34,861 bases of DNA from Phycisphaerae bacterium (lineage in GTDB: Bacteria; Planctomycetota; Phycisphaerae; UBA1845): positions 1 to 34,861 of the forward strand of contig JAFGJQ010000360.1 in assembly GCA_016929015.1 (NCBI GenBank), in the 5' to 3' direction. The notes under the pieces are model-generated. The model made no database searches and was not told the DNA's origin. It saw only the letters and a list, made by a program, of their open reading frames with translations. The translations under genes and the position numbers were made by a program. Shown piece after piece: positions 13,205 to 14,643 of this stretch; position 1 is the first letter of the stretch, and every line of letters starts with the position of its first letter.

Positions 13205-13363
13205 ATGTCAACCACTGCGACCCGTGTGGCTTGTTGCCCTCACTTCGTGATGTGTGTGAACGACCGAACCTGGAACGGCACGAATTGCCACAAGGGAGCA
13301 TTCCATTGGATTCTCAAGAAGTTACCGCGGCGGCCGGCCGGCCGTCGCAGTTCGATACATTGA
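13205..13363 (+). CDS. Small Cys/His-containing frame overlapping the rsgA start
   Basis: This 52-aa frame runs from an ATG with a good ribosome site (AGGAG, 6 bases away). The product starts MSTTATRVACCPHFVMCVND and has further Cys and His (TNCHKG), which could bind metal, then a basic tail. It overlaps the rsgA frame by 58 bases in another frame, so translating ribosomes would pass over the rsgA start. It may be a leader peptide that couples translation, or a chance frame. No family recognised. Confidence 0.35.
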   Translation: MSTTATRVACCPHFVMCVNDRTWNGTNCHKGAFHWILKKLPRRPAGRRSSIH

Positions 13364-14643
13364 CGGGCGTCGTCGTCCGACGCCTGCGCGAGCACCTGGA
13401 CGTCACCGCCGCCGGCACCGTGCTGCGCTGCACGCCGGCCGGCAGCTTGCGGCACGCCGAGCAGCAGCCGGTCGTCGGCGACCGCGTCACCCTGACCGCC
13501 GCCGCCGGCCGAACCGGCGTCGTGCAAACGGTGCAGCCGCGGCGCAACGCCTTGCGCCGCCGCGCCGCCGGTCCGCGCCCGGACGAGCAGGTCCTGGCGG
13601 CGAACGTCGACCGCCTGATCATCGTGGTGGCCGCGGCCGACCCGAAGCCGAAGTGGCCTCTGGTCGATCGCTATCTCGTCACGGCCGAAGCGGAGGGGCT
13701 GGCGGCGTTGATCTGCCTGACAAAGGTTGATCTGCCGGGCGCCTCGGCCGCGCGGCACGGTGCGGCGCTCTACGAGCGTCTGGGTTACCCGGTGGCCTAC
13801 GTCGCAGCGGACGACCCGGACGGCGTCGCGGCCCTGCGTGCGCAGCTCATCGGCCAAACCAGCGTCTTCGTCGGCAAGTCCGGCGTCGGAAAGACCACGC
13901 TGGTCAACCTGCTTTCGGGCGAGCCCTGTGGACGCACGCAGGCGGTCAGCCGCCGCACGCATAAGGGCCGGCACACGACGACAGAGGTGGCCGCCGTGGC
14001 GCTGCCGGAAGGCGGCCTCCTCATCGACACCCCCGGCGTCCGCGAGTTCGCCCTCGCCTCGGCTGCGGCAGGGGACATCGCGGCCGGCTTCGTCGAGATG
14101 CGTCCTCTGCTGGAGCGCTGCCGCTTCCGCGCCGACTGCACGCACACGCACGAGAAAGAGTGTGCCGTAAAGGCGGCCGTCGCCGACGGCACCATCGACG
14201 CCCGCCGCTATCAGAGCTATCTGCGGCTCGTGGCGAAGGGCAATGACCGCCGGCAGCGCGGCGACGCCGGGCCGCGTTCCCCATCCGGCGACACCCCTGC
14301 CGACGGCGGCTTCGCCTGCATTCGCTGTGGGACCCCCGTCCCTTATGACGCCCACGGCACGCGCCAACGCAACCACTGTCCGCTCTGCCTCTGGAGCGTT
14401 CATCTCGACGTCCGTCCCGGCGACCGGGCGGCCGGCTGCGGCGGCGCGATGGAACCCATCGCCATTTGGGCCCGCCCCGGCGGCGAATGGGCGCTCGTGC
14501 ACCGCTGCGAGCGGTGCGGCGCGGTACGCACCAACCGCATCGCCGGCGACGACAACGAGGCCGTGCTCATGTCGCTGGCCGTGCGAGCGCTGGCCTCACC
14601 GCCCTTCCCGCTCGACCGGATCGGAGGGGCCGTGCGGGCCTGA
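13306..14643 (+). CDS. rsgA: Ribosome-biogenesis GTPase RsgA fused to a C-terminal RNHCP domain
   Basis: This is a 445-aa protein. The TTG at 13306 is chosen because AAGGGAG lies 7 bases upstream and RsgA homology starts soon after it. An OB-fold comes first. The circularly permuted GTPase domain follows (TKVD, then GKSGVGKTTLVN, then LIDTPGVREF) and then the RsgA zinc motif (CRFRADCTHTHEKEC). RsgA checks maturation of the 30S subunit. From about residue 335 an RNHCP domain is appended: FACIRCGTPV, GTRQRNHCPLCLWSVHLD, PGDRAAGC, HRCERCGAVRTNRI, GDDN, with four Cys-rich knuckles. RNHCP normally occurs as a small stand-alone protein of unknown role; the fusion suggests that it too acts at the ribosome or on RNA. 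Confidence 0.9.
   Translation: MDSQEVTAAAGRPSQFDTLTGVVVRRLREHLDVTAAGTVLRCTPAGSLRHAEQQPVVGDRVTLTAAAGRTGVVQTVQPRRNALRRRAAGPRPDEQVLAANVDRLIIVVAAADPKPKWPLVDRYLVTAEAEGLAALICLTKVDLPGASAARHGAALYERLGYPVAYVAADDPDGVAALRAQLIGQTSVFVGKSGVGKTTLVNLLSGEPCGRTQAVSRRTHKGRHTTTEVAAVALPEGGLLIDTPGVREFALASAAAGDIAAGFVEMRPLLERCRFRADCTHTHEKECAVKAAVADGTIDARRYQSYLRLVAKGNDRRQRGDAGPRSPSGDTPADGGFACIRCGTPVPYDAHGTRQRNHCPLCLWSVHLDVRPGDRAAGCGGAMEPIAIWARPGGEWALVHRCERCGAVRTNRIAGDDNEAVLMSLAVRALASPPFPLDRIGGAVRA

Follow-up and report, generated by a model that had tools for sequence, protein, structure and literature searches.

An RsgA-RNHCP fusion gene in a Phycisphaerae bacterium and the recurrent linkage of RNHCP to RsgA

Why should a GTPase of 30S ribosomal subunit maturation carry an uncharacterised domain at its C-terminus? 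The question is raised by a gene within a 34,861-nucleotide stretch of DNA (the window) from a Phycisphaerae bacterium (contig JAFGJQ010000360.1). On the forward strand, positions 13306-14643 form a single uninterrupted frame of 445 amino acids plus stop in which, just as the initial annotation had read it, a complete RsgA runs unbroken into a full RNHCP domain; the fusion is confirmed as real. The TTG start codon at 13306 lies 7 bases downstream of the Shine-Dalgarno-like sequence AAGGGAG (13292-13298), which is presumably used for its translation. The N-terminal OB-fold domain (13363-13524; residues 20-73, PF16745, E 2.3e-7, 30.9 bits against a cut-off of 27) is followed by the circularly permuted GTPase domain (13531-14055; residues 76-250, PF03193, E 1.3e-51). 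Here the motifs occur in the permuted order G4-G5-G1-G2-G3, with TKVD (13720-13731) ahead of GKSGVGKT (13873-13896), GRHTTT (13966-13983) and DTPG (14026-14037). The zinc ligands are all kept in CRFRADCTHTHEKEC (14119-14163), whose first loop is one residue longer than in the consensus Cx(F/Y)xxCxHxx(E/D)xxC (PMC9032327), being Cx5C where the RsgA family has Cx4C. The fusion protein scores 209.7 bits against the NCBI equivalog TIGR00157 (cut-off 100), and its best solved match is an RsgA (6h4d, E 2.8e-50, residues 20-310). In its OB fold and permuted GTPase motifs, and in Cys-His zinc ligands set in a slightly longer loop, the protein resembles RsgA (YjeQ, YloQ/CpgA, EngC).

The end of the RsgA C-terminal helix region and a polar linker (14236-14307, an approximate boundary taken from the domain ends) lead into RNHCP (14308-14571; residues 335-422, PF12647), which matches positions 3-90 of the 90-position profile (E 7.9e-38, 128.8 bits against a gathering score of 24). 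Its motifs are CxxC (14311-14331), RNHCPLC (14368-14388; residues 355-361), CGG (14437-14445) and HRCERC (14500-14520). The domain is 49-67% identical to other members of this uncharacterised family; unlike most of them it is fused to RsgA, and it belongs to a longer branch, in which a conserved stretch at the C-terminus ends in PPFP. In the window gene this stretch is an extension (14572-14640) containing LASPPFPL, which is conserved across the RsgA-linked RNHCP branch (alignment A2). Seven cysteines are invariant in 50 RNHCP sequences (C14, C17, C34, C37, C54, C77 and C80 in A2 numbering), as are R, N, H, W, D and P residues, and the paired Cys knuckles probably form two zinc sites. In the fold predicted from 50 sequences (pLDDT 82), two helices follow a small beta domain; a single-sequence prediction of the whole fusion was unusable (pLDDT 34.5). 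Comparison of the RNHCP model by Foldseek and VIA-align gave weak, mixed matches and nothing at E ≤ 0.001, and the RNHCP profile found no match among PDB sequences. A likeness to NrdR (best Z 4.1 over 45 residues) was too weak to be accepted, and no fold was assigned.

A search of the open literature found no paper on the RNHCP domain, although its combination with RsgA may already be listed automatically by InterPro, and none on RsgA together with 'domain fusion'. No relatives were found in the viral contigs searched. Six phage records carrying RNHCP are faecal contigs that are neither verified nor annotated, and RsgA was absent from the four stretches examined of RNHCP-bearing phage records.

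The window genome is a draft of 530 contigs, as would suit an artefact in which a sequencing or assembly error joined two genes. We regard this as extremely improbable, since the frame is continuous, the window contains no N, and the same domain order occurs in unrelated isolates and in one complete genome (AP025576). Among the 80 named loci with the closest RNHCP sequences, RsgA is adjacent or fused to RNHCP in 12, comprising five fusions and seven gene pairs. The fusions are those of Konateibacter massiliensis, Enterococcus malodoratus ATCC 43197, Lachnospiraceae CE91-St56 (the complete genome), Marvinbryantia formatexigens and Eisenbergiella tayi (DSM 26961), and in all five RsgA precedes RNHCP, as in the window. 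Further fusions were found in three more Clostridia and in one spirochaete with a degenerate RsgA part.

While the Lachnospiraceae, E. malodoratus and spirochaete fusions share the domain order of the window gene, their RsgA parts come from other RsgA lineages, and some are degenerate. A single clade of the window RsgA with the fused RsgAs of Lachnospiraceae and Enterococcus was rejected (p-AU 1.1e-5). In the RNHCP tree, which has few columns and weak forks, the fusions are scattered over several positions (the window gene, one spirochaete, Enterococcus and one clade of Lachnospiraceae). These trees indicate that the fusion arose more than once. The RsgA GTPase domain scores 24.9 bits in the spirochaete fusion and 50-56 bits in part of the Lachnospiraceae fusions, with RNHCP fully conserved there; the GTPase therefore need not be the working part of those fusions.

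Several of these loci have features of their own. The spirochaete fusion (locus L280, genome G1788, reverse strand) keeps the OB fold and P loop of its degenerate RsgA and has lost the zinc motif; in its relatives L291 and L292, RNHCP is preceded by a long, polar N-terminal region that contains no RsgA. Four Lachnospiraceae loci (L061, L117, L125 and L168) have a very divergent fused RsgA in which the GRHTTT switch is lost and the P loop and zinc ligands are kept, as if the GTPase had been repurposed with RNHCP conserved. A separate fusion event for these four was considered and rejected: their RNHCP domains group with those of the other Lachnospiraceae fusions, so a fast-evolving derivative of one fusion is more likely. 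Long frames around RNHCP in GC-rich Bacilli resembled fusions and proved to be upstream frame extensions.

Stand-alone RNHCP genes beside rsgA, which the initial annotation had suggested looking for, abut an rsgA paralogue in six phyla, represented by Spirochaetota, Verrucomicrobiota, Planctomycetota, Eggerthellaceae, Clostridia and a Vibrio plasmid. Together with fusions in at least three lineages besides that of the window, they bear out the connection between RNHCP and RsgA that had been proposed from the window gene. The ends of these paired genes overlap or touch. RNHCP usually comes first, its stop codon overlapping the rsgA start (exactly ATGA in twelve pairs), which suggests translational coupling; the order is reversed at two spirochaete loci. 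The pair on the Vibrio coralliilyticus plasmid consists of genes of 411 and 1035 bases with an annotated overlap of 14. No third partner gene was common to the RsgA-linked loci, and no family accounted for more than 4 of the 61 proteins in their neighbourhood.

The frequency of linkage was determined in genomes evenly drawn from six groups, each picked because it had a known linked locus, by searching for PF12647 and checking approximately 1.5 kb on either side for RsgA; the window and group-seeding genomes were excluded from the counts. RsgA was adjacent or fused at 19 of the 126 RNHCP loci examined (the best-scoring 30 per group), where about 0.14 would be expected by chance if two RsgA genes lay at random among 3500, an expectation to be read with the caution that related genomes are not independent. 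Among these best-scoring loci, the linked ones numbered 13 of 19 in Spirochaetota, 4 of 29 in Clostridia (three of them fused), 1 of 9 in Verrucomicrobiota, 1 of 29 in Planctomycetota, 0 of 29 in Bacilli and 0 of 11 in Actinomycetota. A tie between RNHCP and a ribosome gene is thus not peculiar to the window, as RsgA links recur elsewhere. That both genes simply travel on mobile DNA, fused by chance and sharing no function, is very unlikely: it would fit the pair on the Vibrio plasmid and the lack of a fused orthologue among 59 relatives of the window genome, but both gene orders, the overlapping stop and start codons, the different fused RsgA lineages and the Spirochaetota count would be hard to obtain without selection.

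The RNHCP tree divides into two branches (SH-aLRT 98). The short branch, comprising Bacilli, many Clostridia and some Planctomycetota, has zero RsgA links, and no RsgA lay within about 1.5 kb at its 15 Clostridial loci; in the long branch many genes are still solitary, for example in Oscillospiraceae. As judged from these sequences, the RsgA link is confined to one branch. The initial annotation had proposed that RNHCP proteins act in ribosome assembly. The link of one branch to RsgA favours this, but the proposal is too broad for all RNHCP, given that none of the 29 Bacilli, 11 Actinomycetota and 15 short-branch Clostridial loci is linked.

The window RsgA is a second copy, since an ordinary RsgA is also present in the same genome, on contig C192, and groups with RsgAs from other genomes of the family. 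The window RsgA falls outside the clade of ordinary Planctomycetota RsgAs and is placed next to, though not within, a clade that second RsgAs of other phyla form; it is about 38-47% identical to the RsgAs of its order. The window protein therefore differs from ordinary RsgA in its C-terminal RNHCP, its status as a second copy, its longer zinc loop and its place outside the ordinary clade. No fused relative was found among 59 other genomes of the order, most of which have a single RsgA and lack a strong RNHCP match; the fusion gene thus occurs sporadically within the order. The contig itself belongs to the genome's own lineage and is not foreign, because a homologue of one neighbouring protein, at 55% identity, occurs in the same genus. 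At least one further RsgA was present in 11 of 12 other linked genomes. Many bacteria, this suggests, may keep a specialised second RsgA with a job other than routine 30S maturation.

What might RNHCP do for such a second RsgA? On the 30S subunit, RsgA sits at the decoding centre, where it clamps helix 44, and its C-terminal zinc domain spans from the head (h29, h31) to the platform; RbfA release depends on the last helix of RsgA (PMC9032327). Attached just behind the C-terminal part of RsgA, RNHCP would sit near the 30S head and platform, a site deduced from the RsgA structures. The fusion would hold as a domain of its own a partner that other bacteria produce as a separate protein, co-translated with RsgA. 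From this position RNHCP may contact rRNA or a head or platform protein, and may modify the action of RsgA, either by recognising a 30S subunit in one particular state, immature or stressed, or by releasing another factor. Contact with rRNA is suggested by position and, because RNHCP has no clear fold match, finds no support from structure. We consider it probable that the window gene encodes a specialised second RsgA joined to RNHCP, elsewhere its separate co-translated partner, and that RNHCP modifies the action of RsgA on the 30S subunit.

For the long RNHCP branch as a whole, the best reading is that it serves a second RsgA as dedicated partner and would act on the 30S subunit beside the RsgA C-terminal domain. 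We advance more tentatively, at a little short of an even chance, the wider proposal that this branch is an unrecognised ribosome factor, separate from or fused to its dedicated second RsgA, and that the two form a module for quality control or stress rescue of the 30S subunit that has reached six phyla by vertical descent as well as transfer. Counting against RNHCP as a modifier of RsgA action on the 30S subunit are the 107 of 126 sampled RNHCP genes without a neighbouring rsgA, the branch that is never linked, the degenerate RsgA part of some fusions and the sporadic occurrence of the window fusion. RNHCP is a widespread bacterial domain, and since it recurs with RsgA in fusions and overlapping pairs in six phyla, one of its branches becomes testable as a ribosome factor with a specific place on or near the 30S subunit alongside a second RsgA. 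Alternatively, RNHCP could be a metal or thiol sensor that tunes the second RsgA to zinc or redox state, the ribosome being contacted by RsgA only. The seven invariant cysteines would suit a sensor, but the other invariant residues point to a conserved binding surface and no metal-uptake or redox family recurs nearby, and we consider this reading improbable.

A narrower form of the partner reading is that the second RsgA and RNHCP are produced in response to a block in translation, such as that caused by ribosome-targeting antibiotics, and rescue or shield the 30S subunit rather than serving routine assembly; this is possible, though on balance we doubt it. In Streptomyces coelicolor the second RsgA, SCO6149, is activated by WblC and induced by tetracycline, unlike the ordinary SCO5211 (PMC7157823). 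As in the window genome, an extra RsgA there stands beside an ordinary one, but the likeness is by description and concerns the extra copy, not RNHCP. TetR-type regulators account for 3 of the 61 proteins near RsgA-linked loci, one of them directly upstream of RNHCP on the Vibrio plasmid, although TetR genes are common anyway; no known RNA element was found near the window gene. On a plasmid of Streptomyces sp. NBC_00984 (L050:3494-4964), two tandem RNHCP genes are followed by a gene for FBP_C (PF16571, E 3.8e-44), a FusB-like zinc finger whose fold is known from the EF-G-binding FusB proteins. This is possibly another translation-linked neighbourhood, but the arrangement was seen at a single locus, and FBP_C was not retained as a general neighbour of RNHCP.

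A different small gene recurs near RNHCP in Clostridia. It encodes a Mor-type DNA-binding regulator (L061:3413-3796), with counterparts in L057, L063, L069, L096, L109, L113, L116, L117 and L125, and lies near ten RNHCP loci, both fused and stand-alone.
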